From Borrelia hermsii DAH (GTDB lineage: Bacteria; Spirochaetota; Spirochaetia; Borreliales; Borreliaceae): a DNA stretch of 25,951 bases. Positions 716 to 18,152 of the stretch are shown here, one piece after another. Under the pieces are notes generated by a model. That model was not told the DNA's origin and ran no database searches. It was given only the letters and a program-made list of their open reading frames with translations. Position 1 is the stretch's first letter, and every line of letters starts with the position of its first letter. The position numbers were made by a program, and so were the translations under genes. The stretch spans positions 1 through 25,951 of the forward strand of contig NZ_CP073143.1 in assembly GCF_023035675.1 (NCBI RefSeq), in the 5' to 3' direction.

Positions 716-720
716 TACAT

Positions 721-3002: not shown

Positions 3003-3030
3003 ATTTCCCCCTGAGATATCAAATTACTCG

Positions 3031-3064: not shown

Positions 3065-3071
3065 ACTGGTA

Positions 3072-3099
3072 AGCATATACCATTTACTATAAATTACAA
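3072..3099 (-). promoter_or_regulatory. Sigma-70-type promoter of the 286-aa lipoprotein gene
   Basis: On - the -35 is TTGTAA (3099-3094) and the -10 is TATGCT (3077-3072) with a 16-bp spacer. This would start transcription near 3064, at the outer edge of the 34-bp palindrome. It is inferred from consensus match and position only. Confidence 0.45.
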
Positions 3100-3237
3100 A
3101 AATAAATTTTGAAAAATGATACAATGATGCTGCCGATAAAATTGCAAAAAAAATCCCGAAACCTATGCTCTCTTATCAGAAGATACCACTCAAAAATTGA
3201 AAATAATAAAATAAATAATACCTTAATAACAGCTCTG

Positions 3238-3262
3238 AAAAAACGCTGGACATTTATCCAGC
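3238..3262 (-). terminator. Rho-independent terminator
   Basis: Read on -, GCTGGA/TCCAGC arms enclose a 6-nt loop and are followed by G and six Ts. It lies about 400 bp downstream of the 255-aa lipoprotein gene on the same strand and may end that transcript. The intervening 3263-3656 shows no credible gene. Confidence 0.6.
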
Positions 3263-3656
3263 ATCCTGCCTATTCTCTCATAATCTTTTAGGATCTTTGT
3301 AACTATTGCAACATGATATCCCTATTACCTATTTCTTCTATAATGAGATTTATTGCTTTACCAATAAAAGCCAATCTTTACATGCCTAACATTAAAATAA
3401 CAAACCTGAAAACACATTATATATTTTACTTTCCGGGTCAACTTAAGCCAAAATTAATTAATTTCCATGCTATTGTATTAATGCAATGCACAAACCAAAA
3501 TTTATTAGCTACACAAACTTAGATATCAACATATCTCTCCTCAACCCTTACAACCACAAATTGGACTAATTGGTGAACAATGGACTTACAAGCTCATATA
3601 TTAATATGACAAAGGCCTTAGCCCTAAAGCTAACCTCCTATATCCAAAAAAAGTTA

Positions 3657-4424
3657 TTATAACTCTCCTTTCTTAACCTTTCGAAGAATTCCTTCTAAAG
3701 CACTTAAAAGACTCTCCACATTACCTTGAATTTTAAAATAAAAATCATTTTTATCTTGCCTTTTACTATCAACAAATTTATTCTCAGTATCTATGTACTT
3801 ATCATATGTCTTAGGAGATAAATAATACATATTACTTTGCAAATCTTTATTAGCAAGATTCAAAGTTAAATTGATATCGCTCTTCTTCTTATCGATACTC
3901 TCTTTGAAAGAAATCAACCCATTGTAATCAAAAACAATGCATTGAGCACCAAGCAGACTTTTACTTGGGCTGGACAATAATTTACTAGGGCTAAAATCTA
4001 AAATAAATTTAACACCCAAAGAATCTAAATTTCTATCTTTTATTAAATACTCTTTAAGCTCTTTTAAAGTCTTAATACCCAATTTACCTGCACAAGTTGA
4101 ATCTATTAATAGACTAACCTTCCCAACAGTAAAACTACTAGTTCTATCCGAACTACTCTCATAAACACCCCTTCTTGTTGCAATATGTTGTCCGTATAAT
4201 ACTTGATAATAAGCCCGTGATGTAGCTTCGGAATTACTATCTACAAACTCAAACACTAAATCAGACTTTATAGGCAATTCTTCAATGTAATAATACTTAT
4301 GATTATCAAAAATCACCCCAGTATAATCCTTAATAAAACCAGATGATGGTTTACTAAATACACCATGACTACAACTAAATATCATAAATAACAAGGTCAA
4401 AACAATATTCTTCATAATTCTCAT
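3657..4424 (-). CDS. Predicted lipoprotein, 255 aa, unknown function
   Basis: The leader MRIMKNIVLTLLFMIFSC has a lipobox-like IFSC, with Cys18 as the likely lipidation site. The ATG at 4424 is chosen because AGGAGG lies five bases upstream. The alternative ATG at codon 4 is less well spaced. The mature part has no long coiled coil. It mixes beta-like and helical stretches (residues 30-150, with Tyr-rich YYYIEEL near 44) and ends with a Lys-rich tail. It is unlike the neighbouring lipoproteins, and I do not recognise the family. It is probably anchored in the periplasm or on the surface. It stands alone between gene-free stretches, with a terminator candidate downstream at 3238-3262. Confidence 0.8.
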   Translation of the reverse strand: MRIMKNIVLTLLFMIFSCSHGVFSKPSSGFIKDYTGVIFDNHKYYYIEELPIKSDLVFEFVDSNSEATSRAYYQVLYGQHIATRRGVYESSSDRTSSFTVGKVSLLIDSTCAGKLGIKTLKELKEYLIKDRNLDSLGVKFILDFSPSKLLSSPSKSLLGAQCIVFDYNGLISFKESIDKKKSDINLTLNLANKDLQSNMYYLSPKTYDKYIDTENKFVDSKRQDKNDFYFKIQGNVESLLSALEGILRKVKKGEL

Positions 4425-4541
4425 CCTAACCTCCTACGCAAATTAAAATCAACCTATATCAAAATACTAGTACACATTAATTAAAAAAAAATTCCCCCCA
4501 TACTTGAATATAAATAAGCAAACTAAGATTGGGTTATACTT

Positions 4542-4814
4542 TTACTTGTTTCCTATCTTATCATTAAGTCTTCTTTCAAAAAGAGAACTTAAAGTTTCAG
4601 TTCTTGCCTGAATTTCCTGATTTTTAAGCTGACTTTCCTTTTCCATATGTGCCATCCAATCATCAAGACCTTTATCTGTTCCATACTGTCTTTGGAACTC
4701 TCTAAATTCTCTATCTAACTGCGCAGTCGTATAATCAACTTGGGCCATAAATGCTTCAATATCCATTTGTTCAGACTTTAAGCTCTTCCTCTTAGGAAAT
4801 TTAATCACTTTCAT
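4542..4814 (-). CDS. Small soluble protein, 90 aa, unknown
   Basis: The frame is open from 4832, but only through a TTG codon. The ATG at 4814 fits better because AAGGA lies 7 bases upstream. The product is hydrophilic and mostly helical. A basic N-terminus (MKVIKFPKRKSLK) is followed by an amphipathic Gln/Glu/Arg-rich helix (AQLDREFREFQRQYG), then a second helix ending at DKIGNK. There is no signal peptide or membrane segment. It has a compact cytosolic look with a possible coiled coil, but I do not recognise it. It lies 118 bp upstream of the 255-aa lipoprotein gene on the same strand, so the two could share a transcript. Confidence 0.6.
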   Translation of the reverse strand: MKVIKFPKRKSLKSEQMDIEAFMAQVDYTTAQLDREFREFQRQYGTDKGLDDWMAHMEKESQLKNQEIQARTETLSSLFERRLNDKIGNK

Positions 4815-5062
4815 ATAATGATCCTTAAACAAGCAAGAATAAGATAAACGCTTTCATACTAATAAATCAAAACTACTTATATAGTATATATTATATATTA
4901 ATCCAAAACACATAATTTCGTAAACTACACTTGTATTTAACACAAAAAACCCCCAAGTCGCCCTACCTTAGTATTTCAAAACTTGTTTTATGCACAATGA
5001 CTATTGTGATACATATAAATCTAAAAATAGAGAAATCATAATCATATAAAGACCAATAAAGA

Positions 5063-5272
5063 ATGAAATTAATTAATATGAAATTAGTATTCCCAAAAAC
5101 CCGAGCTACAATTAAAGTAATATTAATATATGGGGCCCTTATGACTTCAATAATTGTGTATTCTTGTCTAACTTTATGCATAGCATATTTTTATAACACA
5201 ATAAAAAAAGTTACTTCTAGCTTACAAATAATTCCCCAAAAAAATTTTTCAAACCCCTTATCTGATGTTTGA
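5063..5272 (+). CDS. Possible small membrane protein, 69 aa
   Basis: A 69-codon frame starts MKLINMKLVF, has a basic stretch and then one clear hydrophobic segment (about residues 18-44, VILIYGALMTSIIVYSCLTL), and ends in a polar tail. A single-span inner-membrane protein is conceivable. The RBS is weak (AAAGA next to the ATG), and an overlapping frame on the other strand is as long, so this may be chance in AT-rich DNA. No family is recognised. Confidence 0.22.
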   Translation: MKLINMKLVFPKTRATIKVILIYGALMTSIIVYSCLTLCIAYFYNTIKKVTSSLQIIPQKNFSNPLSDV

Positions 5273-5476
5273 AATGCTAATTTTGACTTTATATTTATTC
5301 ACTGCCAACAAATATTACAAATATACTCTTATAGGAACAATAATTAGTTTTTGCATGCTTATATTCCTTAAATAACAAATCAATATAAACATACAAAAAC
5401 AATCAATAAGTCAGCCCAATTATATGTGGTGAATATATTCATTCTATCATATCTGTTAAGCAGATCAATGCTGTAA

Positions 5477-6125
5477 CATGAACTACTACTTTCTCTAAAA
5501 AGATTCTAGAAGTAGCTTTTATATCATTCTATGATAGCTTTTTTCCAAAAACGGAGCGCCATCCACTCATGGGCCGCAAGCTTAACTTCAGGCCGTTTTA
5601 ACCTTAGTTTTTATTTCTTTATAGTAATAATCCTTTAAAATAAGGATTGCATTTACACCTCTATCATACATAACATTGCAATTACCACGAATCCATTCCT
5701 CATCGCTCAATTTAAATTGATATTTTTATTGCCACAAACACTGCACAACTTGATAAAAGGAAAAAATCTATCTACTTTACACAAGTTAGATTTGTACCAC
5801 TTTGACTTTTATAATAATTGTCTTGTAAATTCATATCATCCTAAATCATTATTAGCTTTTAAAATTTAACTATGATAAGAAGCATATTCATTTATTACTA
5901 AAATTTATCCCTAATAAACAACCTCTAAGTTCATTAACAACCTAAAAACAATTTCTTCAAAGTCTATAAGAAAAAAATATTTTACATACTTGCATAAATA
6001 CTATTGGAAAAATTATTTTAGTATGAAAGTTATTGTCTTATCTCTACTGGAAGGGTCTTTATTAATATCATTAAGAAATACATACAAATTCAATAAATTA
6101 TCATGGCAAAGAATTCTCCACCTAA
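5477..6125 (-). pseudogene. IS605-type tnpB relic, copy 1
   Basis: Reading on -, broken frames preserve the C-terminal end of TnpB, the RNA-guided nuclease of IS200/IS605 elements. Visible are VDRFFP, LCSVCGNKNIN and EEWIRGNCNVMYDRGVNA. The last matches the zinc-ribbon and RuvC-III motif (CxxC, then HDRDxNA), but the first Cys of the second pair is Arg. Stops and frameshifts abound. Copies recur at 8430, 9876, 10902, 13190 and 15225. The TnpB 3' end (5477-5520) carries a small inverted repeat around TAGAAGTAG, like IS605 subterminal hairpins. No TnpA is present. Confidence 0.7.
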
Positions 6126-6477
6126 ATTTCATAAAAATTATAGACGGAAAATTCCTTGTCATCTTTTGTTAAACAGTAACTAACTTAGCTGAACATCGTG
6201 TCATAAGATAATTGCTGTCTGAATATTAAATTAATGTTTAAGCCCAAAACTTATAGAATGAATTCCTTATATCTATAAATTTAACTTAAACATCAATACT
6301 TTTAGGACAAATCAAATTCTCTTAAATCATTAAGAATGATTTAAATTTAAAAACTAAAAATAAATGGAAGTCGGTTTTAAATTTTACAAAAAAATACCCT
6401 ACAGAGCCACAAACCCATACTTTATATAACTTAACAACAATTCCCAATTGTGGGAAGTTTATGTACAAATTATCTAT
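6126..6477. other. Gene-free stretch
   Basis: AT-rich sequence between the tnpB relic and the stop of the 309-aa lipoprotein gene. I see no open frame, strong hairpin or promoter here that I would defend. Confidence 0.4.
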
Positions 6478-7407
6478 CTAATCTTCTCTTATAAGCGAAG
6501 CTTCAGCAAATTTAAAATCAAACGAAGGTGATAAAATTTCAATAGCATTAATACTATCCATACTAGATCTTATATCATCACCATTGAAATGGGCATCTAT
6601 CACAGACAAATAATTATCCAATGAAGGCTCAATTTCCTCACTTAAATCATTTTTTACTTCTGTATATTCTACTCTCACCTCATCACTCATCTTTAATGCA
6701 AGTTCCCCGCCATCTAAATTACCAAGATCTAAAATAATCTCATTTACAGATTCAAATTTCCTTATACTGTCTAAATTTTTATTTATTATGTTAAGCATAT
6801 TTTTAACTTCATCTTCATCTAGAACTAAAATCCGATTCAATTTATCGATCTTATTAGTCAAAGCTTTTTCCAAAAATTCTAATGCCTCTTTTTGTTTTTC
6901 ATTTAGATTATCTTTTAATCTTTGCTTAGATCTCTCTAATAAATCTTCTTCCAACATTATTCTTGAGACTACATCGTTATCTTTGCGGGTCTCAGAAACA
7001 ACCGCCCGTTCGCCTATATACTCTATACTATCTTGTAAGGAAAATAATAAACTATCCTGCAACAGATAATCATCTAACTCTTCCACTTCTAAAATATCTA
7101 CTCCTGCAAATTTTTGATCATCCACATGATCATTTAAAACTTCTTTTTTAATTACTCCTTTATCCCTATTGTCCACATCTATTTGATCAATATTATTCTT
7201 TTCTATTTGTTTTTTACTATCTTTAGAACGTTGCCAAATGGCTTTATCTCCCTGAAATTCATTCTGCTCAGAATCATTATTGTATAATGGCACATCTAAA
7301 CCATCTTCAAAAAATCGAATACTTACATTACCTTTCTTATCCACACTACAGCCACTTAAGGCAATAACCAAGCAAATAATACTCAAAAGATTTATCACAA
7401 CACTCAT
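6478..7407 (-). CDS. Acidic lipoprotein, 309 aa, unknown function
   Basis: Starting at ATG 7407, the leader MSVVINLLSIICLVIALSGC ends in a classic lipobox LSGC, making Cys20 the lipidated residue. The frame is also open three codons further from a TTG (7416). GGGA is the only RBS-like run nearby and is set rather far back. Residues 20-110 are Asp/Lys/Asn-rich and probably flexible. Residues 150-225 form a helical, Lys/Glu-rich segment (LNEKQKEALEFLEKAL). The C-terminus is acidic and ends SLIRED. It is probably surface-exposed or periplasmic. The length and domain order do not let me name a Borrelia lipoprotein family. Confidence 0.78.
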   Translation of the reverse strand: MSVVINLLSIICLVIALSGCSVDKKGNVSIRFFEDGLDVPLYNNDSEQNEFQGDKAIWQRSKDSKKQIEKNNIDQIDVDNRDKGVIKKEVLNDHVDDQKFAGVDILEVEELDDYLLQDSLLFSLQDSIEYIGERAVVSETRKDNDVVSRIMLEEDLLERSKQRLKDNLNEKQKEALEFLEKALTNKIDKLNRILVLDEDEVKNMLNIINKNLDSIRKFESVNEIILDLGNLDGGELALKMSDEVRVEYTEVKNDLSEEIEPSLDNYLSVIDAHFNGDDIRSSMDSINAIEILSPSFDFKFAEASLIRED

Positions 7408-7564: not shown

Positions 7565-8191
7565 TTAAAGAAAACTAAAATTATTCAGAATATCTCTTAC
7601 CAAACAGGTCAATATACCAAGCTTTTCAAGCTCCATAATGATCAATTCAGGAAAAGAAGAAATACTCTTTGTAGCATCGGTTACTAAATAAGATTGAAAT
7701 CCTAAATTATAGGCATCAATGATTGTTTCCTTTACGCAAAAGTCCAACGCTAAGCCTACCATAAACACCGTGTCAATTGCATTGGATTGAAGATAATCCA
7801 AAAGGCCCGTTGACTTTTTCTTACTAGAATCATCATAAAATCCACTGTAGCTGTCATAATTTCTGTCCTGTCCCTTTAGAAAAACAGCCTTTACTTTCTT
7901 AACATCCAAATCCTTTGGAAATTCTGCTCCCCATGTATTTTGAACACAATGCTTAGGCCAACCCCTACAATTAGTATCACTTAAAAAACTTATGTGATTC
8001 TCGCAATGCCAATCTTTAGTCGCAACAATATGCTCAAAACAATTCTGAAGTTGGTTTACCAAAGGGATAATGTCATTACCATGGGGAACAGAAAGAGCCC
8101 CAGATTCCAAAAAATCGTTTTGAATATCTATTAAAACTAATGCGACATTCTTTAAAGTCAAATGCGAAAATGATTTCTCCATCAAATTCAT
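7565..8191 (-). CDS. pncA: Nicotinamidase
   Basis: This enzyme hydrolyses nicotinamide to nicotinic acid and ammonia, feeding NAD salvage in the cytosol. The 208-aa product has the full isochorismatase-family layout. The catalytic triad is Asp22 (VLIDIQNDF), Lys106 (FLKGQD) and Cys152 (ALDFCV). The metal site is Asp60-Trp-His62 with His81. The cis-peptide region GLALDFCV is intact and nothing looks truncated. B. burgdorferi carries the equivalent gene (BBE22) on lp25, where it is needed for mammalian infection because Borrelia lacks de novo NAD synthesis. If this is the only copy here, the plasmid would be hard to lose. The start ATG 8191 has a weak upstream GTAGGT. It is transcribed alone. 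Confidence 0.95.
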   Translation of the reverse strand: MNLMEKSFSHLTLKNVALVLIDIQNDFLESGALSVPHGNDIIPLVNQLQNCFEHIVATKDWHCENHISFLSDTNCRGWPKHCVQNTWGAEFPKDLDVKKVKAVFLKGQDRNYDSYSGFYDDSSKKKSTGLLDYLQSNAIDTVFMVGLALDFCVKETIIDAYNLGFQSYLVTDATKSISSFPELIIMELEKLGILTCLVRDILNNFSFL

Positions 8192-8429
8192 TATTGTACC
8201 TACTCAAAATATAAAGATCATTGCTTCAAAATATTGCCAATCATATATAAAATGACACAGGGATATAAATTTTGATATAAAAACAAAAAGAGACGCTTAA
8301 AAAGCCTATATCCTATAAAAATATTATAAAATAATAATCCGCTTTAGAGTAAAAAATGCATTTAATATTATAATTAATATTTCCCAAATTTAGTAATTCA
8401 ATCTTTTTAAGAATGCCTACTAAATCAAA

Positions 8430-8625
8430 GTGAACTACTACTTTCTCTAAAGAAAAGATTATAGAAGTAGCTTTTTGTATCATTCCATAATAGCTTTTTA
8501 GGCTCCAAGAACACTATATCCACTAGGCATGATCAACAGATTTAACTTCAAGCGGTTTTAACCTTAGTTTTTATTTCTCTAATTGTAACTTAACGCTGGG
8601 GTAAAAAATTCTCCATCTATAGTTA
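8430..8625 (-). mobile_element. IS605 relic copy 2, internally deleted (MITE-like)
   Basis: The outer end TGAACTACTACTTTCTCTAA matches copy 1. The same block running into CCTTAGTTTTTATTTCT follows, after which the tnpB body is missing. The sequence passes directly to AATTCTCCATCTATAG, a string that also borders copy 6 (15211-15228). Both ends joined with almost nothing between them is the structure of a miniature, non-autonomous derivative. Confidence 0.5.
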
Positions 8626-8627
8626 AA

Positions 8628-8701
8628 AAGTCACATCCATAATGCTTGACCATTAGAATGTGACTTGAAGAATTACATTAAGTTGCGACTGACTTTGTCG
8701 C
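8628..8701. repeat. Two adjacent stem-loops
   Basis: The first is AAGTCACAT/ATGTGACTT (8628-8636 with 8658-8666), with a shorter inner pairing TAATG/CATTA in its loop. The second is GCGAC/GTCGC (8685-8701) with a 7-nt loop. They directly follow the short IS relic and could be element-end structures or an RNA fold. The rest of 8702-9102 holds no gene that I can support. Confidence 0.5.
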
Positions 8702-9102
8702 TTCTAATATATTATTTATTACTTTAGCTAATAAAACTACTCTTATAGTTTACTTGTTATTAAGCTACTAATTTTTATATTAAAATCCTACAAGAACTAC
8801 TGTGTCCAATATAAGAGTGGCTATTAAAATTTATTATAAGACATTGATAAAAGAATTACCTATTTTGTTATCAAAACTCTTTTTCACAATACCTCTCCTT
8901 ATCTGAAATAAAAGTCTTAGTATATATTGAATCACATCACAAGTTTTTTGTCAATTTAAATTAAATTTTATTAATAAAAATCCTGGATTTAATGTTAATC
9001 TTGTTATACTCAATAATACTAGACGAAACACAAAAAGTCATGACTTTAAAATATAAAGTCTGATGATACCAGTCTTAAGTTATAATTTTAATTACATTAA
9101 AT

Positions 9103-9399
9103 TCACTCTTTTGATATTACCTTTGCTATTAACTCTCTAAATTTAGGCATCTTTTCCCTAACTTCTCTCTTTATTTCAAATTTATATTTCTCATTATTTT
9201 TAAATGCAAGCAAACTAAGGGTTAAATATTTCAAAAAATCTTCAGGAATTAACATGATGTTTCCCACCCTGATATAACATTCTAAAACTTCTAACTTATA
9301 TCTTAAATGGCTCTTTGTAATTTTATACCCAAACTTACTTTTAAGGACTTCTTGTGCTTCAGAAACCTTGTAAAAAGAGTGCCCTTCTATCATTCTCAT
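9103..9399 (-). CDS. Small excisionase-like helix-turn-helix protein
   Basis: From ATG 9399 the product has 98 aa. The frame continues upstream to a GTG at 9450, but that start lacks a spaced RBS. Residues about 6-60 (FYKVSEAQEVL, then ITKSHLRYKLE, then YIRVGNIMLIPEDFLKYL) follow the pattern of small winged helix-turn-helix DNA-binding domains of the excisionase/HTH_17 type: an xxEAxxxL helix, a recognition helix, then a wing ending xVGxxxxIPxxDLxxYL. A basic helical tail follows. It may bind DNA as a local regulator or accessory factor. The assignment rests on pattern only, and no integrase is nearby. It lies beside the non-coding structured region 9472-9737, in the opposite orientation. Confidence 0.6.
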   Translation of the reverse strand: MRMIEGHSFYKVSEAQEVLKSKFGYKITKSHLRYKLEVLECYIRVGNIMLIPEDFLKYLTLSLLAFKNNEKYKFEIKREVREKMPKFRELIAKVISKE

Positions 9400-9471
9400 A
9401 AAATTAATTTTATACTTAATTAAACAAATAAAAACTTCAAAAATAAACACTCCATTTTGTAATAGAAAATA

Positions 9472-9737
9472 TTGAATTTACAAAATTGTGGTATAAAATC
9501 TAAATATAAGGAAAAATTTTCCTCAATAACAGTTAATAGTCTTGAATATTGGTTTGTTCTTATTTAAATAATATTAATGTTAACTTTTTAGAAGTTTTGT
9601 ATTATTTAAGATAAATGAACTCCATACAATGAGTTTCATTTACCTTCTTTTAACTTATGGGTACCTAAAGTACATAAATGCTTCTTAGGTACATTATTAA
9701 CTTTCCCTCCTCTCCGTTTGGGAAAGTTGTTTTTTTA
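9472..9737 (+). ncRNA. Candidate structured small RNA
   Basis: On +, TTGAAT (9472-9477) and TAAAAT (9494-9499), 16 bp apart, could form a promoter. The following 230 bases lack any coding frame but fold locally. There is a stem at about 9611-9641 (ATGAACTC with GAGTTTCAT, one bulge), a stem GTACCTAA/TTAGGTAC at 9661-9692, and a final strong terminator. Promoter, folds and terminator without a reading frame are what a small RNA gene looks like. A decayed gene leader is the alternative. Confidence 0.4.
9699..9737 (+). terminator. Rho-independent terminator
   Basis: Nine-bp perfect arms AACTTTCCC/GGGAAAGTT enclose a 12-nt pyrimidine-rich loop and are followed by G and seven Ts. This is the strongest terminator in the window, yet there is no + strand gene upstream of it. 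Confidence 0.8.
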
Positions 9738-9875
9738 TTAAGATGCTTTTTGATCAATTAGAATTGTAGTCTATTTTTGGTAAAACTTACAAATGTCTTA
9801 TCAACTAAACTTTGTATATACTAAAACCGCAAAACAAATTATTTGACTTATTATATCTTTGCAAAACACAATGGG

Positions 9876-10740
9876 TAATTCACTAAGCGTGTCATTAAGC
9901 TTTTTAGATCCAAAAACATTAATCCACTAGAGCATGGGGTCATAAGCCTAACTTCAGGTCATTTTAACCTTAGTTTTTATTTCTCTATAGTAATAATCCT
10001 TTACAACTAAGGATTGCATTTACACCTCTATCATGCATAACATTGCAATTACCACAAGTCTATTCCTTATCTAATCTGTTTTTAACTCTATTATTTGAAC
10101 ATTTCATTTTCTTAGATAGTCTTCTTTGATATCTCGTAAGTTTATTAGCGCTTTTAAGTCATCATTTAAGATGATTTTCCCCTTCACTACTCACAAAAAA
10201 ATACCCCCATTCTCTTATCATTGTCTACTACCTCTTTTTCATTATCAACTTCACTATTATTTTTGACATCTAAGCATTCAAATGCTATTTACATAGCATT
10301 TATTATCAAGGTTTTTGCTATAGTTACATTTTTATAATTTCACTACTTTGAAGTCTTATATGCAACTTAATTCTTACAATCCTGTCTTGGGTAATTTGAT
10401 TTTTTCCATTATCTACCCTTACTTTAACCTTTTTCATTCTTTGTTCTACACGTCTATCTTACCTAGATTTATATTTAGGAAATCCTTGTGCTTTGGGCCC
10501 TTTTCCTTTGGCTCTGAAAAATTATTATATGAAAACCTCACACACCCTAATACTTTGGCAAAAATACTCCATCCATAATTTAATTGCAGGACTATTAAAT
10601 TTAGTTGGAACATTCTTTGGTTTTTTGAATAAAAAATTAAAGGCCTCATTAGGGATTTTAAGTTAAAGTCTCTAACAAAACCTTTAATTGGTTTTATAAT
10701 TTCTTTTTCTGAAAGAGTGATACGTAAGTGTATCAAACCT
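9876..10740 (-). pseudogene. IS605-type tnpB relic, copy 3 (most complete)
   Basis: On -, pieces of TnpB occur in the right order. An N-terminal part reads KVLGCVRFSYNNF (about 10530-10570), matching the conserved GCVRFVYN start region. The central helix motif RYQRRLSKKMKCSNNR lies around 10085-10135. The C-terminal TCGNCNVMHDRGVNA follows (about 10015-10065), with the CxxC and His-Asp-Arg motif intact here, unlike in the other copies. Many stops and internal losses separate the pieces. IS605 TnpB is an RNA-guided nuclease helping element persistence. This one is dead. It is distinct in sequence from copies 1, 4, 5 and 6. Confidence 0.7.
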
Positions 10741-10853
10741 TAAATAAACTATACAACAATTTTGTTGATTTTCAAATATTTATGTTTAACATAAAAGAAA
10801 TAATTTTTATGGGGTGAATTGGTGAGCGTAAGCTTTGATCTTTTATGGGTTTT

Positions 10854-10901
10854 TTATATATTTGTACATTCTAAATTAATCTGTGTTTTTTCAAGATACT
10901 T
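10854..10901 (-). pseudogene. parA: Third parA (PF32) scrap
   Basis: On -, sixteen codons read KYLEKTQINLECTNI and then a stop. The intact ParA at 14285-15031 has EYLEKSQINVEYTNI at residues 55-69, and the DNA is also clearly alike. The scrap ends exactly where the tnpB relic copy 4 begins, so the element lies within or replaces the rest of this parA. Confidence 0.6.
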
Positions 10902-11560
10902 AGTGAACTTACCACTTCTATGATCTTCAATTATAGAAGTAGCTTCTTGCATCATTCCATGATAGTTTCTTAGGTTCCAAGAACACTAATCCACTAGAGC
11001 ATGAGTCGCAAGCTTAACTTCAGGTCATTTTAACCTTAGTTTTTATTTCTTTATAGTAATAATCCTTTAAAATAAGGATTGCATTTACACCTCTATTATA
11101 CATAACATTGCAATTACCACGAATCCATTCCTCATCACTCAATTTAAATTGATATTTTTATTGCCACAAACACTGCACAACTTGATAAAAGGAAAAAATC
11201 TATCTACTTTATACGAGTTAGATTTGTACCATTTTGACTTTTATAATAATTGTCTTGTAAATTCATATCATCCTAAATCATTATTAGCTTTTAAAATTTA
11301 ACTATGATAAGAAGCATATTCATTTATTACTAAAATTTATCCCTAATAAACAACCTCTAAGTCCATTAACAACCTAAAAACAATTTCTTCAAAGTCTATA
11401 AGAAAAAAATATTTTACATACTTGCATAAATACTATTGGAAAAATTATTTTAGTATGGAAGTTTATTGTCTTATCTCTACTGGAAAGGTCTTTATTGATA
11501 TCATTAAGAAATACATACAAATTCAATAAATTATTAGGCAAAAAATGTACATTATTGACA
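10902..11560 (-). pseudogene. IS605-type tnpB relic, copy 4
   Basis: Near-identical to copies 1, 5 and 6. The end AGTGAACTTACCACTTCTAT with its inverted partner ATAGAAGT lies at 10902-10945. The decayed tnpB C-terminus (GNCNVMYNRGVNA, LCSVCGNKNIN, VDRFFP) reads on -. It stands as an inverted repeat to copy 5 across the PF57-PF50 block and ends just before the PF57 leader. Confidence 0.7.
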
Positions 11561-11615
11561 AAACATAATTTTTCATATACACTGTACTCACACTTTTTTT
11601 GAAGGAGTAAATAAA

Positions 11616-12494
11616 TTGGAAATCTTAGAAAAAGCTCATAACAAAGAACCAAGAAAAAAATTCAATAAGCATCAACATAAGTTGATAGTACTAATATCAA
11701 CACTAAATTACATGAATTTAACCTTAAGAAAATATACCCAAAGTAACATACTATACTACTTTAATAACAATTTGAAAAGAAATGGTCAAAAAATTATAAA
11801 GATTAAAACATTACAAAGCTATTTATACAAATTAGAAAAAGAATTGCAGGTAACTATTAACTACTATAAACATCTAGGAAAGAACTACGGGACAGAAATT
11901 TATTATCAACTCAGATATCCTAAAAACAAATGTTATCACAAAATCAATTCATACTTTAAAAGAAAAAGAGAAAAAAAATTCAACGAAAGGGTTTATAAAT
12001 ATCTATGTTCAAAAAATATCAATGAAGAAAAATGGGAGTGTATAAATAATATAAATAATATAAATAATATAAAGCCACACGAAAAAAAAGAGGTAATAAA
12101 AAATAAACAAAAGGAACTCAAACTAAAACAAAAAACACCGAATCACAAAAATAAAAAATTCAAAAAAGAAAGTCACAATAAAAATAAATTAAAAGAAAAA
12201 TTAAATAAGACATACAAAAATCACAATTACAAGCCTAATTCCACGGCAGTAAATAAAAAATCCAAAAATCCAAACACAATAACAAAAGCAACAAAAGAAA
12301 AGGAAAGCAACGAAAACAATATTAGAAACAACATATTCAGCATACTACTTGAACAATTAAAACAAAAAACGGAGGTCAAAGTTTTAGTACCATTACTAAA
12401 AAACTATCTAGACAACACAAATAATCTAAATTATACTAAGATAATTAATAACCACTATTATTATGAGCTTTTAGAAATACTAAATGAGGTATAA
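11616..12494 (+). CDS. PF57/62 plasmid replication/maintenance protein
   Basis: This belongs to Borrelia paralogous family 57/62, present on nearly every Borrelia plasmid and thought to act in replication initiation. Residues about 15-125 carry the conserved domain (NKHQHKLIVLISTLNYMN, LRKYTQSNILYYFN, KTLQSYLYKLEKELQVTINY, YKHLGKNYGTEIYY). Residues 140-230 are a Lys/Asn low-complexity linker that includes an INNINNINN run encoded by a 9-bp repeat. A helical C-terminal domain closes the protein. The start is taken as TTG 11616, because AGGAG lies 8 bases upstream and no good ATG precedes the conserved domain. The length (292 aa) includes the expanded linker. PF50 follows directly on the same strand. 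Confidence 0.9.
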   Translation: MEILEKAHNKEPRKKFNKHQHKLIVLISTLNYMNLTLRKYTQSNILYYFNNNLKRNGQKIIKIKTLQSYLYKLEKELQVTINYYKHLGKNYGTEIYYQLRYPKNKCYHKINSYFKRKREKKFNERVYKYLCSKNINEEKWECINNINNINNIKPHEKKEVIKNKQKELKLKQKTPNHKNKKFKKESHNKNKLKEKLNKTYKNHNYKPNSTAVNKKSKNPNTITKATKEKESNENNIRNNIFSILLEQLKQKTEVKVLVPLLKNYLDNTNNLNYTKIINNHYYYELLEILNEV

Positions 12495-12525
12495 ACCATT
12501 TATTCATAGACCAAGGAAATTGAAA

Positions 12526-13098
12526 ATGAATGACCTATTCAAACGACTGAAACAAAAAGCAGAAATATTAAAATTAAATGCATCTCAAACGCGAATCAAA
12601 AACATTTTCGATAAAATAGAAAAGAACAACGGGAAAAAAATATACCATACAAAACCATTTAATGATTTTTACACATTCGGCATTAACAGAAAACAAAAAA
12701 ACAAATTCTTAATTGCCCTCAAAAAATATTCAAATCCCAACAAAGAAAGAAAAATATACACATTTCACTTATTTAGCATTAAAGGAGAAGATGCTTTCCT
12801 AGGAATTTGTTATTCTGTCAAAAAACTACAAAAACCCTTGGTCATTAAAAACGTAGAAAAAAATGAGTCCTATACCATAAGATGGTGTGTTTGCATGGAA
12901 TTCAGATTTAAAACAGGATTCGTCATATGTTATCTTACAAACTTTTATTCTTTGTTAAAAAAAACGAAAGTAAATACTGAATATTACAAAAAATTATTAA
13001 ACATTACTCTAGAAATTGAAAGACAGGTATATGCGTTTTATAACAAAAATTTACCCGAAGGAATAATAACCAAATGGATAGAGAAAAAACAAAGATAA
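12526..13098 (+). CDS. PF50 plasmid maintenance protein (DUF226)
   Basis: Borrelia paralogous family 50, always beside PF57 and PF32 in plasmid replication/partition loci. The 190-aa product has the family landmarks: MNDLFKRLKQKAE at the start, NNGKKIYHTKPFNDFYTFGI near residues 35-55, a Tyr/Phe-rich core, and the terminal helix ERQVYAFYNKNLPEGIITKW. The frame is open from 12484, overlapping the end of PF57, but ATG 12526 matches the usual family start and has AAGGA 8 bases upstream. Its last 25 bases overlap the start of the parA stub, as in the second locus. Exact biochemical role is unknown; plasmid replication or partition is inferred from context. Confidence 0.88.
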   Translation: MNDLFKRLKQKAEILKLNASQTRIKNIFDKIEKNNGKKIYHTKPFNDFYTFGINRKQKNKFLIALKKYSNPNKERKIYTFHLFSIKGEDAFLGICYSVKKLQKPLVIKNVEKNESYTIRWCVCMEFRFKTGFVICYLTNFYSLLKKTKVNTEYYKKLLNITLEIERQVYAFYNKNLPEGIITKWIEKKQR

Positions 13099-13189
13099 TC
13101 ACTATAGCATCAATTAAGGGAAACTATAAAAAAACACATCAGCATTATTTTATACATTATTATCTTCAAACCCCAATATCTTACTAATT
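13074..13189 (+). pseudogene. parA: parA (PF32) 5' stub
   Basis: ATG 13074 overlaps the PF50 stop by 25 bp, the standard arrangement. It reads MDREKTKIITIASIKG, identical in plan to the intact ParA, then loses the Walker A loop (GGVGKS) through small lesions, continues out of frame to ILLIDM, and is cut off by tnpB relic copy 5. It therefore lacks ATP-binding residues and about 80% of the protein. Confidence 0.85.
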
Positions 13190-13700
13190 GATATGAATAT
13201 TTTTTTCTTATAGACTTTGAAGAAATTGTTTTTAGGTTGTTAATGGACTTAGAGGTTGTTTATTAGGGATAAATTTTAGTAATAAATGAATATGCTTCTT
13301 ATCATAGTTAAATTTTAAAAGCTAATAATGATTTAGGATGATATGAATTTACAAGACAATTATTATAAAAGTCAAAATGGTACAAATCTAACTCGTATAA
13401 AGTAGATAGATTTTTCCCTTTTATCAAGTTGTGCAGTGTTTGTGGCAATAAAAATATCAATTTAAATTGAGTGATGAGGAATGGATTCGTGGTAATTGCA
13501 ATGTTATGTATAATAGAGGTGTAAATGCAATCCTTATTTTAAAGGATTATTACTATAAAGAAATAAAAACTAAGGTTAAAACGACCTGAAGTTAAGCTTG
13601 CGACTCATGCTCTAGTGGATTAGTGTTCTTGGAATCTAAGAAACTATCATGGAATGATGCAAGAAGCTACTTCTATAATTGAAGATCATAGAAGTAACAG
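13190..13700 (+). pseudogene. IS605-type tnpB relic, copy 5
   Basis: The tnpB C-terminal remnant reads on + (VDRFFP, LCSVCGNKNIN, GNCNVMYNRGVNA, with frameshifts). It ends in the hairpin CTTCTAT/ATAGAAG at about 13670-13692. It replaces the rest of the parA stub on one side and abuts the 3' end of PF49 on the other. It is an inverted match to copy 4 and a direct match to copy 6. Confidence 0.72.
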
Positions 13701-13701
13701 T

Positions 13702-14274
13702 TCACGTTTTCTTTTTAGGTTGTATCATGCATTTTTCAAAATCTTTTTTAGTTTTTTCTATGTATTCTTTGTCTTTTGTAAAGATCTTTTCCATAAGAAA
13801 ACAGGTAAATTTTGGGTTTGTTTTGTAAAAATTGTAGGCGTCTTGATTTTTGAATTGTAGTTTAATTGACTTGATTAAGTTTGATGTCTTTTGTTTGTTT
13901 TCCGTTTCTTTAGCTGATAAAAAAAAATATGTGTTCATTATTCCTTTTGTTATTATAGATTCTTCATTTATTAAGTTATTGTTAAGTCCTTCTGCAATAG
14001 TTAGATATGCATAAACTTGGGTTCTGGCTAAATTATAGTTTTTTATAAATGAGCTAAAGTTTTTATAGCCATCTAATTTGAATAGTTTTTTGTCATTAAT
14101 TTCTTTTAATATTTTCATGGTTTCTATTTTGTTGTAGATATCTTCTTTTAAATTTATTTTGAGTTTTGCTTTTAATTTTTCATAAATTTGTATATTAATG
14201 TCGTTAGTATTTTTTTGGAGAGAAGTATCTTTTTCAATAATCCTTTTATTTAACTTAAATTTATTCTTTTTCAT
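13702..14274 (-). CDS. PF49 plasmid maintenance protein
   Basis: Borrelia paralogous family 49, the fourth member of the PF57-PF50-PF32-PF49 plasmid cassette. The 190-aa protein shows the family core: KLKINLKEDIYNKIETMKILKEI (about residues 38-60), a DGYKNFSSFIKNYNLARTQVYAYL helix-turn-helix-like segment (68-91), and DAYNFYKTNPKFTCFLMEKIF near the C-terminus. It starts at ATG 14274 with AAGGAAG five bases upstream, ten bases after the ParA stop, so the two are co-transcribed. It is presumed to help ParA in plasmid partition; the precise role is not settled. The last codons touch the end of the tnpB relic, so the extreme C-terminus may be altered. Confidence 0.88.
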   Translation of the reverse strand: MKKNKFKLNKRIIEKDTSLQKNTNDINIQIYEKLKAKLKINLKEDIYNKIETMKILKEINDKKLFKLDGYKNFSSFIKNYNLARTQVYAYLTIAEGLNNNLINEESIITKGIMNTYFFLSAKETENKQKTSNLIKSIKLQFKNQDAYNFYKTNPKFTCFLMEKIFTKDKEYIEKTKKDFEKCMIQPKKKT

Positions 14275-14284
14275 ATAAACTTCC

Positions 14285-15031
14285 TTAAATTTGTTCGGCC
14301 CCGAACAAATTTTTTAATGCTTTTTTATAGTCTGATGTGTAATCTTCATTTAGAGAAAAGCCAATATTTTGTGCGATTCTTTTATTTAAATCCTCTCTCT
14401 CTCTTATAGAACCAATAAAATTAGAGTTTCGTTTGAGAATATCTAGATAAAATTTATTTGAATTGTTATTTTTAAATCTGGTATTTAATACATATATGGG
14501 TAAATTTAGGTCCAATTGTTTAATTTTAAAGTTAAGCGCTTCTAAGCTTTCTATAGACCATTTTTCAGCTGGAATTGGAGATATAATCAAATCAGAGACA
14601 ACAAGAGCATTAATTAGCGTAAAATCTAGGCTTGGATTGGTATCAATTATTATGTAATCATAAGCATTTTTAATAAAATAAAGTGCTTTTTTTAACCTGT
14701 TTTCTTTGAATGGTAAATTATCATTATTAAAAAAGTGTAAATTTAGATAACTAGGGATAAAGTCTAAATTTTGATTTATAGTGCAAATACTATTCTTAAT
14801 ATCCATATTCTTTCGTAAAATCTCATATATATTTGTATATTCCACATTAATTTGTGATTTTTCAAGATACTCATTAAAGTAACTTGTAAGACTTGCTTGG
14901 GCATCCATGTCGATTAGTAAGACATTAGAGTTTTTAGAAATGATAGTAGAGAAAAGGATAGCAGAAGTACTCTTTCCTACGCCTCCTTTAATTGATGCAA
15001 TTGTTATTATTTTTGTTTTTTTTCTATCCAT
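14285..15031 (-). CDS. parA: ParA plasmid partition ATPase (PF32)
   Basis: Borrelia PF32 ParA, a deviant-Walker ATPase that drives segregation of the plasmid by dynamic binding to the nucleoid with its centromere-binding partner. The 248 aa show deviant Walker A KGGVGKST (15-22) with signature lysine, switch I region DMDAQAS (41-47), and Walker B YIIIDTNPSL (about 126-134). Length is normal for the family and no lesion is seen. ATG 15031 overlaps the PF50 stub by 25 bp. PF32 sequence type usually defines Borrelia plasmid compatibility, so this gene rather than the stub at 13074 should set it here. Confidence 0.95.
   Translation of the reverse strand: MDRKKTKIITIASIKGGVGKSTSAILFSTIISKNSNVLLIDMDAQASLTSYFNEYLEKSQINVEYTNIYEILRKNMDIKNSICTINQNLDFIPSYLNLHFFNNDNLPFKENRLKKALYFIKNAYDYIIIDTNPSLDFTLINALVVSDLIISPIPAEKWSIESLEALNFKIKQLDLNLPIYVLNTRFKNNNSNKFYLDILKRNSNFIGSIREREDLNKRIAQNIGFSLNEDYTSDYKKALKNLFGAEQI
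14287..14312. repeat. 26-bp inverted repeat at the end of parA
   Basis: Perfect 12-bp arms AAATTTGTTCGG/CCGAACAAATTT are separated by CC, inside the last ParA codons (LFGAEQI) and 13 bp before the PF49 start. On + it is followed by TTT, giving a terminator look for transcripts coming from the PF57 side. On - it could modulate translation of PF49 or bind a protein. Confidence 0.7.
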
Positions 15032-15222
15032 TTATTTATTATCCCTCCAAGTAAATTTTTGTTATAAAACGCATATACTTGTCTTTCAATTTCTAGAGTA
15101 ATGTTTAATAATTTTTTGTAATATTCAGTATTTATTTTAGCTTTTCTTAGCAAAGAATAAAAGTTTATAAGGTAGTATATAATATAGGCTGCTTTGACTA
15201 TAAATGGTAGAGAATTCCCCAT
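15007..15222 (-). pseudogene. PF50 3' stub
   Basis: The last 60 codons match the C-terminus of the intact PF50 (LLNITLEIERQVYAFYNKNL, GGIINKWIEKKQK) with a few substitutions. The first about 10 residues (MGNSLPFIVK) come from unrelated DNA at the border of tnpB relic copy 6. The conserved N-terminal and central parts are gone, so it is not functional. It marks what was once a full PF57-PF50-PF32-PF49 cluster. Confidence 0.85.
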
Positions 15223-15224
15223 CT

Positions 15225-15912
15225 ATAGTAAGTTGCAGAGCTTTTAAATTTAGGTAGAGAATTTTTTGTCATGATAATTTATTGAATTTGTATGTATTTC
15301 TTAATGATATTAATAAAGACCCTTTCAGTAGAGATAAGACAATAACTTCCATGCTAAAATAATTTTTCCAATAGTATTTATGCAAGTATGTAAAATATTT
15401 TTTTCTTATAGACTTTGAAGAAATTGTTTTTAGGTTGTTAATGGACTTAGAGGTTGTTTATTAGGGATAAATTTTAGTAATAAATGAATATGCTTCTTAT
15501 CATAGTTAAATTTTAAAAGCTAATAATGATTTAGGATGATATGAATTTACAAGACAATTATTATAAAAGTCAAAATGGTACAAATCTAACTCGTATAAAG
15601 TAGATAGATTTTTCCCTTTTATCAAGTTGTGCAGTGTTTGTGGCAATAAAAATATCAATTTAAATTGAGTGATAAGGAATGGATTCGTGGTAATTGCAAT
15701 GTTATGTATAATAGAGGTGTAAATGCAATCCTTATTTTAAAGGATTATTACTATAAAGAAATAAAAACTAAGGTTAAAACGACCTGAAGTTAAGCTTGCG
15801 ACTCATGCTCTAGTGGATTAGTGTTCTTGGAATCTAAGAAACTATCATGGAATGATGCAAGAAGCTACTTCTATAATTGAAGATCATAAAAGTGGTAAGT
15901 TCACTAAGTATG
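15225..15912 (+). pseudogene. IS605-type tnpB relic, copy 6
   Basis: A long copy in + orientation, nearly identical to copy 5 over about 15390-15890 and extending further upstream (NLYVFLNDINKD stretch near 15270-15330, shared with copy 4). The C-terminal TnpB zinc-ribbon remnant is at about 15620-15740. The end hairpin CTTCTATAATTG...CATAAAAG is followed by GTGGTAAGTTCACTAAG. With copy 5 it brackets the PF49-PF32-PF50 stub block as direct repeats. Confidence 0.72.
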
Positions 15913-15960
15913 TCATTAACTAAATTTTGATTGCAGTTTCAGCCCTCGTTGCGTTAGGAA

Positions 15961-16835
15961 TTATTTTGTTAATGTATCTAATGTCTTAGTAACTGCACTT
16001 ACTGCTGTTCCTTTAATCTCAGCAGCAACAACCCCACCATCATCGGCACTAGCATTAGAAAATTTACCATCCTTTGCCATTGCTCTTAATGCTATAGCTC
16101 CTGCTATAGTTCCATCTTTAGCTATACCAGTAGTGTTAACAGCCCCCGCATTATTCTTAGCTAACTTGACAGCATCACCACCATCTTTAACCATAGCTTG
16201 TAATATGTCAGCACCAGTTACTGCTCCAACAGCTTTTGCTGCATCAGCTGCTGACTTCTTAGTTTGAGCAGCATCACCGGCATTACCAGCACCAATAAAC
16301 AATTTAGCCGCCTCTCCATCACCAGGATTATTATTAGTTCTTGCGCTACCATCTTCAGCTTTTTTATCTGTACCAGCATCGTCTTTACCTTTATCTCCAA
16401 GTACTACATCTACAATATCTTTAATTCCCTTGACCAAGCTTTCAACACTATCAGATTTAGCACCAACACCATGAGCAGCATCACCACCAGCCCCTTTAGC
16501 AGCAATATTGCCAATCGGATCACTAGAATTACCAATAGCCTCGCTAGCAGTCTTTGATCCTTCTATTATCTTATCAAGTGTTTCAGTAATTAGTTTGTTA
16601 ACAGCAATCTCAGTTTCAGCTGCATTAGGATTTCCTTCACTTTTCATGTCAGCGACAATTTTATTGAGCTTGTCCTTAGTGCCTTGTATAGTATCTTGTA
16701 CTGTCTTAAAATAAGCCCCAACATCAGACTTTTTTGTCTCTGTACTAAAACCTAATACCTTGGAAACTATATCTCCAAATGATGTAAACACATTTAAAAA
16801 ATCATTACCTAAGTCTATTACTGACTTTAAGAAAG
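15961..16835 (-). pseudogene. vlp: Silent vlp cassette, truncated at both ends
   Basis: A variable large protein (Vlp) surface-antigen cassette without leader, RBS or promoter. The coding frame runs in from about 16835 ([20 protein letters not shown]), well upstream of any start codon. Typical Vlp landmarks follow: [56 protein letters not shown], and the end LDTLTK with a stop. Intact Vlps continue for about 35 residues after this point, so the 3' end is also lost. It cannot be expressed as it stands but can donate variable sequence by recombination. Vlp in the expressed state is an abundant outer-membrane lipoprotein. Base composition is clearly GC-richer than the flanks. Confidence 0.88.
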
Positions 16836-16932
16836 TAAATATGATGCTGGTGATGGTGAAGCGGGAAAGTTATTTGCTTCTGCTAATGCTGGCACTGCTG
16901 ATAATCAGATTCCTGAAACTAAGAAGAACTAA
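16836..16932 (+). pseudogene. vlp: vlp fragment with large internal deletion
   Basis: A short in-frame remnant reads [18 protein letters not shown], found in the middle of the vlp at 21257, joined directly to [10 protein letters not shown] and a stop, which is the C-terminus of the vlp fragment at 20011-20440. The join lies at a shared ACTGCTGA/ACTACTGA-like stretch, suggesting deletion by short homology. It is head-to-head with the preceding cassette. Confidence 0.75.
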
Positions 16933-16959
16933 TATTAGAAGTAATAAGCAGTAAATAAC

Positions 16960-16998
16960 TAAATAAAGTTATTTAAGGAGAACCCTTCTATTGTTCTC
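16960..16998. repeat. Paired stem-loops after vlp C-terminus
   Basis: TAAATAA/TTATTTA (16960-16975) and GAGAAC/GTTCTC (16978-16998) follow the vlp tail. The same block, slightly diverged, follows the vlp fragment ending at 20440. It belongs to a repeated spacer of about 190 bp that links a vlp tail to the next vmp start (16890-17080 and 20405-20590). Confidence 0.6.
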
Positions 16999-17075
16999 GA
17001 TGCATGAGAGGTATTTCCTTATTTATATCTTGTCCCTTTACTTAAATAGAGTAATAAAGGAGGGCACGTAAAAAA

Positions 17076-18152
17076 ATGAGAAAAAGAATAAGAGCAATAA
17101 TAATGACTTTATTTATGGTATTAGTAAGCTGTAATAGCGGTGGGGTTGCAGAGGATCCTAAACATGTGTATTTAACATCTATAGCTAATTTAGGAAAAGG
17201 ATTCTTAGATGTTTTTGTGACTTTTGGAGATATGGTTACTGGAGCTTTTGGTATTAAGGCAGATACTAAGAAAAGTGATATAGGGAAGTATTTTACTGAT
17301 ATTGAGAGTACTATGACAGCAGTTAAAAATAAGTTGCAAGATGAAGTTGCTAAGAATGGGAATTACGCAAAAGTTAAAACAGTTGTTGACAAGTTTGTTG
17401 CAGATGTCTTAGACAAGATTGCAGCAGGAGCAAAGGAAGCAGCTAGCGGTCTTAAAGATGCTAATGGTAATTTAGGGGCTGTAGAAAAAGCCGCTGATGC
17501 TAGTAAAGGAGCAGACGCAACTAGTGTAGGTAACCTAGTTAAAGGAATAAAAAATATAGTAGATATAGCGTTAAAATCAAATGAGGGTGATGGAGCAAAA
17601 GATGTAACTAGCCCTGCTGTTGACGATAAGAAGAAAATAGGGAAACTATTTGGTGATAAGACTGGTAATGGAGCAGAAGAGAAACATATAGCAGCGGCTA
17701 GTGCATCTATAGGTGCAGTGAGTGGAGTTGATATTCTTCAAGCTATAGCTAGGTCTAGTGATAAAGCGGCTTCTGGTAAAGCAAGTGAAGCCAAAGATGC
17801 AGCAGGACTTGCAATGGCTAATGGTGATTCCACTGAAACTACTGATTTAGATGAAGCAGCAAAAAAAGATGCAGTAATAGCAGCAGGAATAGTATTAAGA
17901 GCAATAGCTAAAGATGGTAAATTTATTGTAAAGGATACTGGTGACAATAAGACTGAAGCTGAAGCCGCTAAAGGTGTAGCAGCAAGTGCAGTAGGTAAGA
18001 CATTAAGTACACTTATAATAGCAATAAGGAATACAGTTGATAGTGGATTAAAAACAATAAATGAAGTACTAGCTAAAGTTAAACAAGAAGATAAGTCAGC
18101 AGAAGCAACTAATACTGCAGAAGCAACAACTAGTGGCCCAGTAAATAATTAG
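17076..18152 (+). CDS. vlp: Full-length variable large protein (Vlp), probably silent
   Basis: A 358-aa Vlp lipoprotein with all parts present. The leader [19 protein letters not shown] has lipobox LVSC (Cys19). Then come LANLGKGFLDVF-like and FGIKADTKKSDIGKYFTDIE, VDKFVADVLDKIAAGAKEA, VKGIKNIVDIAL, SIGAVSGVDILQAIA, GIVLRAIAKDGKF, and the C-terminal TLIIAIRNTVDSGLKTI before GPVNN. It is in a different Vlp subfamily from the minus-strand cassettes. GGAGG precedes ATG 17076 by 13 bases, the same spacing as in the other vmp genes. No convincing -35/-10 pair lies upstream, unlike at 24910-24954, so this is likely an intact archived copy rather than the expressed gene. Confidence 0.92.
   Translation: MRKRIRAIIMTLFMVLVSCNSGGVAEDPKHVYLTSIANLGKGFLDVFVTFGDMVTGAFGIKADTKKSDIGKYFTDIESTMTAVKNKLQDEVAKNGNYAKVKTVVDKFVADVLDKIAAGAKEAASGLKDANGNLGAVEKAADASKGADATSVGNLVKGIKNIVDIALKSNEGDGAKDVTSPAVDDKKKIGKLFGDKTGNGAEEKHIAAASASIGAVSGVDILQAIARSSDKAASGKASEAKDAAGLAMANGDSTETTDLDEAAKKDAVIAAGIVLRAIAKDGKFIVKDTGDNKTEAEAAKGVAASAVGKTLSTLIIAIRNTVDSGLKTINEVLAKVKQEDKSAEATNTAEATTSGPVNN

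Follow-up and report, generated by a model that had tools for sequence, protein, structure and literature searches.

Does a plasmid maintenance locus whose two halves face each other stem from two plasmids or from one? The question is raised by a stretch of 25,951 nucleotides (nt) of Borrelia hermsii DAH (contig NZ_CP073143.1, positions 1 to 25,951; hereafter the window), in which open reading frames (ORFs) and Pfam matches delineate two convergent half-loci, a PF57-PF50-parA stub on the forward strand and a PF49-ParA-PF50 stub on the reverse strand (Table 1). The best explanation, to which we assign a probability of about 0.8, is a single maintenance locus of the F20 plasmid type that was duplicated, decayed and half inverted, and that carries a predicted small RNA which would target PF57. 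Publications are cited below by PubMed Central (PMC) number, for the passages concerned.

One complete maintenance set in two convergent halves

Instead of a single contiguous, co-directional PF57-PF50-PF32-PF49 cluster, the window contains two convergent halves. Each of the four families has a member here, and one intact copy of each gene is left, which makes one complete F20-type set. The initial annotation had described two facing, tail-to-tail stubs that complement each other, and these points were confirmed. Its inventory had to be corrected for a second parA fragment outside the range that it covered, and for the PF50 stub, whose homology ends at 15205 at most and not at 15222. The DNA of the stubs is alike but not identical, as it had stated: the PF50 stub matches intact PF50 at 90% over 174 nt, and the parA stub starting at 13074 matches nt 1-129 of intact ParA at 74%. 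The 25-bp PF50/parA overlap that it had pointed out was measured at both junctions (13074-13098 and 15007-15031), but it indicates no special link between the halves because it has the same length in three other records (it is 28 bp in B31 lp28-3 and lp38).

In published work, the plasmid was cut just 3' of its "genes for autonomous replication" in recovered clones (PMC6011951), while a cassette placed between pf50 and tra was tolerated and served for displacement via incompatibility (PMC3974855). These manipulations are consistent with a working maintenance locus.

Table 1. Predicted features in and around the maintenance locus, in window coordinates
Feature	Position	Strand	Basis or remark
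R0 repeat unit (tnpB relic)	5503-6129	-	
Candidate antisense RNA gene	10622-10745	-	5' hairpin, core, terminator-like hairpin (about 10689-10635), T run
Antisense core ACTCTTTCAGAAAAAG	10718-10703	-	nearly invariant
Promoter-like site of the candidate antisense RNA, TTGAAA-16-TATAGT	10748-10775	-	
ParA' pseudogene, 3' fragment (nt 161-206)	10855-10900	-	alignment; left outside the inversion
R1 repeat unit (tnpB relic)	10896-11546	-	left inversion breakpoint
PF57 promoter-like site, TTGACA-17-TACACT	11555-11583	+	conserved in aligned relatives
PF57 ribosome-binding region CTTTTTTTGAAGGAGT	11593-11608	+	predicted RNA target
PF57 (Borrelia_orfA), replication gene	11616-12494	+	Pfam; in the inverted half
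PF50 (DUF226), intact	12484-13098	+	Pfam; in the inverted half
ParA' pseudogene, 5' fragment (nt 1-129)	13074-13198	+	alignment to ParA
R3 repeat unit (tnpB relic, shorter)	13196-13695	+	right inversion breakpoint
PF49 (Plasmid_parti)	13702-14274	-	Pfam
PF32/ParA, intact	14285-15031	-	Pfam
PF50' (DUF226) stub	15007-15222	-	remnant of the first tandem copy; homology to 15205 at most
R4 repeat unit (tnpB relic)	15261-15911	+	

A candidate antisense RNA gene at the end of the array

The predicted RNA gene lies to the left of R1, at the end of the ancestral array. The block that holds it, about 180-190 bp long, shows 89-93% conservation across other species (97% in B. nietonii and 82% in B. anserina); the ParA' remnants adjoining it are 67-74% like intact ParA in several species. 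Compared with shuffled sequences, the RNA folds with a z score of -4.1 in the window and of -6.6, -6.3 and -6.5 in three relatives. The promoter-like site and the hairpin are conserved in 10 F20 plasmids, the first hexamer being kept in all of them and the second varying in two (alignment), so that prediction from sequence yields a conserved RNA gene with promoter and terminator. A terminator scan by a G+C rule found none at the predicted gene, and Rfam gave no match at E values up to 1 over window positions 10000-16500. A covariance model of the RNA block, run against 76 sources, found homologues after PF49 on B31 lp54 (E 7e-11), as well as matches on the megaplasmid of the same genome as the window (E 4e-8) and on related plasmids, with weaker ones elsewhere. 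Because the homologues follow PF49 on lp54 and on the megaplasmid, the ancestral unit would be PF57-PF50-ParA-PF49-RNA, and the second copy's RNA gene appears to close the F20 array.

The lp54 RNA downstream of BB_A21/PF49 corresponds to "Sequence 5" of Delihas 2009 (PMC2674063), for which an RNAz z score of -6.04 was given there. It was presented in that source as a conserved structure without target or function; the F20 homologue and the pairing with PF57 are new here. Titles and abstract openings in the literature disclosed no Borrelia antisense or small RNA at PF57. The comparison also covered passages of PMC5216591, PMC6041397, PMC9108270, PMC10406323, PMC9839762 and PMC10319736, the last of which lacked the terms.

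Complementarity between the candidate RNA and the PF57 leader

The core ACTCTTTCAGAAAAAG can form 16 bp, including 2 G-U pairs, with CTTTTTTTGAAGGAGT at the ribosome-binding site of PF57. The pairing with the PF57 leader was better than with all 40 shuffles in 5/5 species, while the PF50 and PF49 leaders did no better than shuffles in the same five species (p 0.1 or more). When both strands of the whole window were scanned, PF57's own antisense excluded, the RNA was the best of 3446 segments against the PF57 leader. Contiguous pairing and scans from the leader side were adopted after a ranking by energy from the RNA side, which is considered below.

On plasmids of the lp54 family, the same position of the RNA pairs with their own, different PF57 site, CTTATATTAGGAGT, over 14 bp in 3/3 records; by energy, the antisense site ranks third for the PF57 leader in the lp54 stretch. 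The candidate RNA is not encoded in cis opposite its target: its gene is 0.9 kb away in the window and stands after PF49 on lp54 and others.

We also searched for hairpins followed by T runs without use of the leaders, in 38 clusters representing 19 leader types, 18 of them with hairpins. Seven of the 45 leader rows were excluded, four without a ribosome-binding motif (including B. turicatae lp46 and lp47) and three others. The cognate leader ranked 1/18 in 12 types, second or third in 3 and lower in 3, and the resulting sum (460.5, against 281.5 ± 15.1) was reached in 0/20,000 permutations. Complementarity specific to the type of initiator mRNA was thus found for the window and for the majority of types, though not for all. 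This matrix replaced a first unbiased one, in which a divergent gene whose leader is similar (cp30/cp32) and a window zone that was too short had acted as confounders.

A second test, by location, used 34 rows and zones of 450-1100 nt, with zone sizes and scoring of our own choice. The cognate leader ranked first in 17/34 rows and second in 6/34; in 4 of these 6 only a leader of the same type tied or won. The sum was 891.5, against 630.3 ± 17.1, with a maximum of 711 in 20,000 permutations. A leader-pairing scan of the whole stretch covered 6/34 rows. In a scan of 1.5 kb, the site after PF49 came out on top for lp28-6 and cp26. The lp28-1 plasmid failed by run score; its site 160 nt after PF49 is the best by energy over 26.9 of 28.2 kb and is also matched by the RNA covariance model. 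Within one cell, the cognate pair was the best by energy for 6/8 B31 plasmids and for 5/7 B. hermsii plasmids, one of the latter (contig C5) winning only by -12.9 versus -12.8. When leaders of further ORFs bearing a ribosome-binding motif served for comparison, PF57 had the best run for the window (0/30 equal or better) and for cp26, lp28-3 and lp38 (0/68 each); the leaders that equalled or beat it numbered 1/68 for lp54, 3/69 for lp25 and 19/68 for lp28-1.

On cp32-type plasmids the RNA is predicted upstream of PF57, on the opposite strand, and its core stands between near-constant flanks (ACTACC before, an AATTTGC-like motif after). In the displayed set the core follows the leader type by type in 9/10 loci, one of them with a one-base bulge; the tenth lacks the anchor used for display, yet it ranks first in the location test. 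A divergent reading frame upstream of PF57 was observed in the cp32 loci and in B. hermsii contigs C2-C4, with a leader that, type by type, closely resembles that of PF57 on the plasmid concerned. Both mRNAs could therefore be targets of one RNA.

Several results speak against a PF57-targeting RNA. The ParA leaders scored above most shuffles in 2/5 species (p 0.025), and when energy was scanned from the RNA side, the PF57 leader was surpassed by several window segments with lower total energy. Covariation of the RNA stem is weak in the F20 set, with 1 pair changed on both sides, and both the transcription and the size of the RNA are predictions. On the broken-up clusters of lp36 and lp17 no antisense site was found near the locus. 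For lp28-3 the site after PF49 came second in the 1.5-kb scan (32.5, against 35 for another site), and neither lp28-3 nor cp26 has a hairpin after PF49 by the hairpin criterion, their sites having been located by pairing scans. In the location test, 11/34 rows ranked fifth or worse, and for 13/34 (2 F20, 10 cp32-like and cp9) the zones had been set with the position of the RNA known. For this last reason the permutation was repeated on the other 21 rows, to which a fixed rule applied, and on eight types added after the idea had been formed. Eight of the 21 rows ranked first (sum 506.5 against 390.0 ± 13.4; 0/20,000 permutations). Five of the eight later types, JD1 lp28-6 and B31 lp28-3, cp26, lp25 and lp38, ranked 1/34, and 3/20,000 permutations were as good for the eight alone. 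Some of the failures are due to a more distant RNA (B. hermsii contig C2) or to a bulge.

Such results could also be expected if the RNA were a mere terminator region or a regulator of another gene, and if the complementarity arose from A/T-richness, from the shared ribosome-binding motif or from leader repeats on cp32. Leaders and cores are indeed rich in A/T, the cp32 antisense site is a direct copy of leader DNA, a divergent gene on cp32 has a similar leader, and the low-ranking third of the location test would find its place there. We nevertheless regard this as unlikely. Non-cognate leaders with the same motif and composition score lower; the cases on linear plasmids are inverted repeats, which are not expected from the copying of leaders; the core tracks the leader between near-constant flanks on cp32; and most of the types added later rank first.

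We also considered lp28-6, the copy number of which is reported to differ about 10-fold between strains JD1 and 297 (PMC3303823). The two sequences differ at two bases (4135 and 4140) around the PF62 promoter, while RNA and ribosome-binding site are identical. Because the differences lie at the PF62 promoter, this pair is not a test of the RNA idea.

Probable tandem duplication followed by inversion

Turning from a proposed PF57-targeting RNA to the history of the locus, we compared nine related records, from B. coriaceae, Candidatus (Ca.) B. fainii, B. venezuelensis, B. puertoricensis, B. parkeri, B. turicatae (three) and B. anserina. All genes are co-directional in the nine, in the order ParA-PF49-PF57-PF50. 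A ParA' remnant follows PF50 in 9/9 and a PF50' remnant precedes ParA in 7/9; for B. turicatae BTE5EL and BTCAM1, which have decayed genes, there was no PF50' among the matches listed. The permuted order is flanked by the overlap regions of the missing neighbours and therefore points to a tandem duplication whose outer parts decayed. With remnants in B. anserina, B. coriaceae, the B. turicatae group and Ca. B. fainii, the duplication appears to be old.

In the window, nt 1-129 and nt 161-206 of ParA' lie on opposite strands, while they are contiguous in B. parkeri, B. turicatae and B. anserina. For this reason the stretch from PF57 to the 5' part of ParA' is taken to be inverted, and both breakpoints are relic copies. 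The inversion is limited to B. hermsii and B. nietonii among the examined records. Duplication followed by inversion had been one of two origins offered by the initial annotation, whose interpretation is on the whole partly supported: it was right on these two events, but the duplication is to all appearances old and tandem, and the inversion is confined to two of the species compared.

The events probably ran as follows. A PF57-PF50-ParA-PF49-RNA gene cluster would have been tandemly duplicated in an ancestor of the relapsing-fever species compared, and its outer parts would have decayed to give PF50'-ParA-PF49-PF57-PF50-ParA'-RNA gene. In the lineage of B. hermsii and B. nietonii, opposed tnpB-relic repeats in ParA' and between PF49 and PF57 would then have recombined, flipping PF57-PF50-ParA'(5') while both transcription units were kept and the RNA gene was left outside. 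That we infer this order, including that of relic insertion relative to inversion, tempers the reading.

One repeat is found, in copies, on both outer sides and in the centre of the locus. It appears to be a decayed tnpB. The repeats at which the initial annotation saw both stubs cut are real, but what identifies them as tnpB relics is sub-threshold zinc-ribbon matches together with a DNA identity of about 75% to TnpB genes of Borreliella; no IS605-type TnpB domain was found above the curated cut-off in the four relics (21.6-22.9 bits, against 26.3). R1, R3 and R4 are 98.3-99.6% alike in B. hermsii, with R0 at 96%, and the copies within B. nietonii are 98.9-99.8% alike; between the two species R1 is 97.2% and R4 95.4% identical. 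This likeness within a genome is consistent with recombination or conversion among copies. B. nietonii has the inversion and has lost most of R3. In B. coriaceae, relic sequence (about 70-75%) lies between PF57 and PF49, with similar junctions and no inversion.

One could also imagine an active switch, in which the inverted repeats flip the PF57-PF50 half back and forth and thereby alter the expression of maintenance genes. The repeats are 99% identical, and the greater likeness of the copies within than between species makes them look homogenised. Still, all three assemblies compared have one orientation, and in B. nietonii the central copy is nearly deleted, so that flipping there is unlikely. 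We hold such a switch to be improbable and retain the single inversion of a duplicated locus.

Other arrangements of this kind of locus were seen in passing. On B. anserina lp12-1 the whole F20 array occurs twice, in near-terminal inverted copies (79-3553 and 7959-11432), and both PF57 proteins share one accession. B. turicatae lp46 and lp47 have an F20 array with fragmented PF57, PF49 and ParA, that is, a locus decayed on larger plasmids, where another maintenance set has perhaps taken over. On B. hermsii contig C4 a second maintenance cluster lies about 28 kb from the first; the PF50/ParA junctions of the two are identical, so that the contig resembles a dimeric circular plasmid.

Both halves derive from one plasmid type

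The other origin offered by the initial annotation was the fusion of two related plasmids. We compared the junctions of PF50' with ParA (J1) and of PF50 with ParA' (J2) in trees that combined 11 J1 and 11 J2 rows with 43 junctions from other plasmids. Four junctions of B. turicatae BTE5EL and BTCAM1 were excluded (altered ParA start), and the PF50' and ParA' rows of B. hermsii and B. nietonii were trimmed at the start of the repeat. In the PF50 tree the 22 J1 and J2 junctions form one group (support 100/100), and in the ParA 5' tree they are separated from the 43 others (98/97), although the trees are rough, with short PF50 and ParA alignments, a PF50 bootstrap that had not settled and long branches for the decayed ParA'. 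Because J1 and J2 group together against the other 43, both halves appear to derive from one plasmid type. PF50' groups with PF50 within B. hermsii (96/78) and within B. anserina (96/88), a pattern suggestive of conversion between the two gene copies. Like the roughness of the trees, this burdens the duplication reading, which needs gene conversion or repeated duplication to accommodate it.

A fusion in which two related plasmids of unlike maintenance type had supplied one half each would fit the presence of two PF50 and two parA remnants, and fusions are described as frequent in Borrelia (PMC9158201). It is nevertheless very unlikely, since the 22 junctions group against the 43 others in both trees, the remnants also occur in the co-directional relatives, and the clustering of PF32 and that of PF57/62 agree for F20 (PMC9158201). 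Thus, two sets from different families were not found in the PF50 and ParA 5' trees, and the related proposal that PF57/PF50 differ from ParA/PF49 in origin and compatibility is unsupported because a fusion of two types is.

That the layout is an assembly artefact, a concern which the 500-568-nt inverted repeats of 99% identity on either side of both halves had raised, can be set aside almost entirely, because B. hermsii HS1 lpE27 (maintenance region 99.7% identical) and B. nietonii YOR lp23 (96.4%) have the same layout, the latter with the central repeat almost gone, and long reads underlie the published assemblies (PMC10580987; PMC4901232).

The plasmid and its family

ParA of the window is 90-94% identical to that of six other species or strains (B. 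coriaceae lp28-2, B. venezuelensis lp17-2, B. turicatae lp19, B. parkeri, B. puertoricensis and Ca. B. fainii) and 87% identical to that of B. anserina, so it has an F20-type PF32; ParA of this type (DNA identity of at least 88%) was found in 4 of the 18 genomes of the genus that were searched. The plasmid had initially been assigned to family F27, which was ruled out by the naming of DAH lp26 and YOR lp23 as F20 plasmids with a vmp expression site in PMC10580987. A run of 13 T at 24910-24922 agrees with what has been reported upstream of the vmp promoter in strain DAH (PMC3974855). For this strain 12 replicons are listed (PMC9158201), and the window is contig 8 in a genome of 12 contigs. The window also contains vlp genes at 15961-18152. 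It is most likely DAH lp26, the vmp (antigen) expression plasmid of B. hermsii. The F20 family, treated in PMC9158201 and PMC10580987, is called not syntenic in the latter, whereas we find a common gene order around the maintenance locus in the compared records, with one inversion. Main-text passages of these two papers contain no description of a permuted or inverted F20 locus.

Discussion

The canonical PF57/62-PF50-PF32-PF49 cluster of lp54 and cp26 has the same four families and a short PF50/PF32 overlap. In contrast, the locus in the window is permuted, tandemly duplicated with decayed ends, and half inverted into two convergent units. The split Borreliella clusters of lp36 (PF49 inverted) and lp17 (PF57 and PF32 apart) are likewise broken-up native maintenance loci; in contrast to the window, they have no facing remnants of one type in their annotation and no antisense site near the locus. 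On B31 lp36 (3875-7184), PF49 is inverted relative to PF57-PF50-ParA, and no antisense site was found nearby.

A Borrelia cell harbours numerous related plasmids in low copy number. In the mechanism that we propose, PF57 would start replication, with ParA, PF49 and PF50 supporting maintenance. The small RNA, if expressed, would cover the ribosome-binding site in the PF57 mRNA of its own plasmid, lowering translation of the initiator; through reduced initiator synthesis, copy number would feed back on itself, and different cores would make plasmids independent of each other. Because the pairing is type-specific, the RNA would both set copy number and contribute to compatibility.

Small antisense RNAs such as CopA of R1 and RNAI of ColE1 act in plasmid replication control. 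Classical plasmid antisense RNAs are encoded opposite their target, with full complementarity, whereas the gene considered here lies elsewhere and offers a match of about 11-17 nt over the ribosome-binding site. The proposed role is like that described for RNAII of pMV158, a small RNA that acts on initiator mRNA in replication control.

PF32 has to be considered beside the RNA. Its sequence type correlates with compatibility (PMC3303823), and its role as a partition protein has been doubted (PMC9039534). Shuttle vectors with the nucP-to-PF32 part of cp32, which lacks PF49, replicate and displace the cognate cp32 (PMC9839762). They do not separate the RNA from PF32, because the fragment probably includes the predicted RNA as well. 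We think it likely, if less so than the account given of the window itself, that many Borrelia and Borreliella plasmids have their own non-overlapping antisense RNA on the PF57 ribosome-binding site, which together with PF32 would set copy number and coexistence, and that F20 plasmids keep this RNA despite the rearrangement.

The arrangement shows that permutation and inversion of one half need not deprive a maintenance locus of a complete gene set, here on what is most likely the plasmid from which antigens are expressed. If the proposed mechanism is true, a type-specific RNA directed against the plasmid's own initiator would provide a simple and testable rule for both copy number and compatibility.

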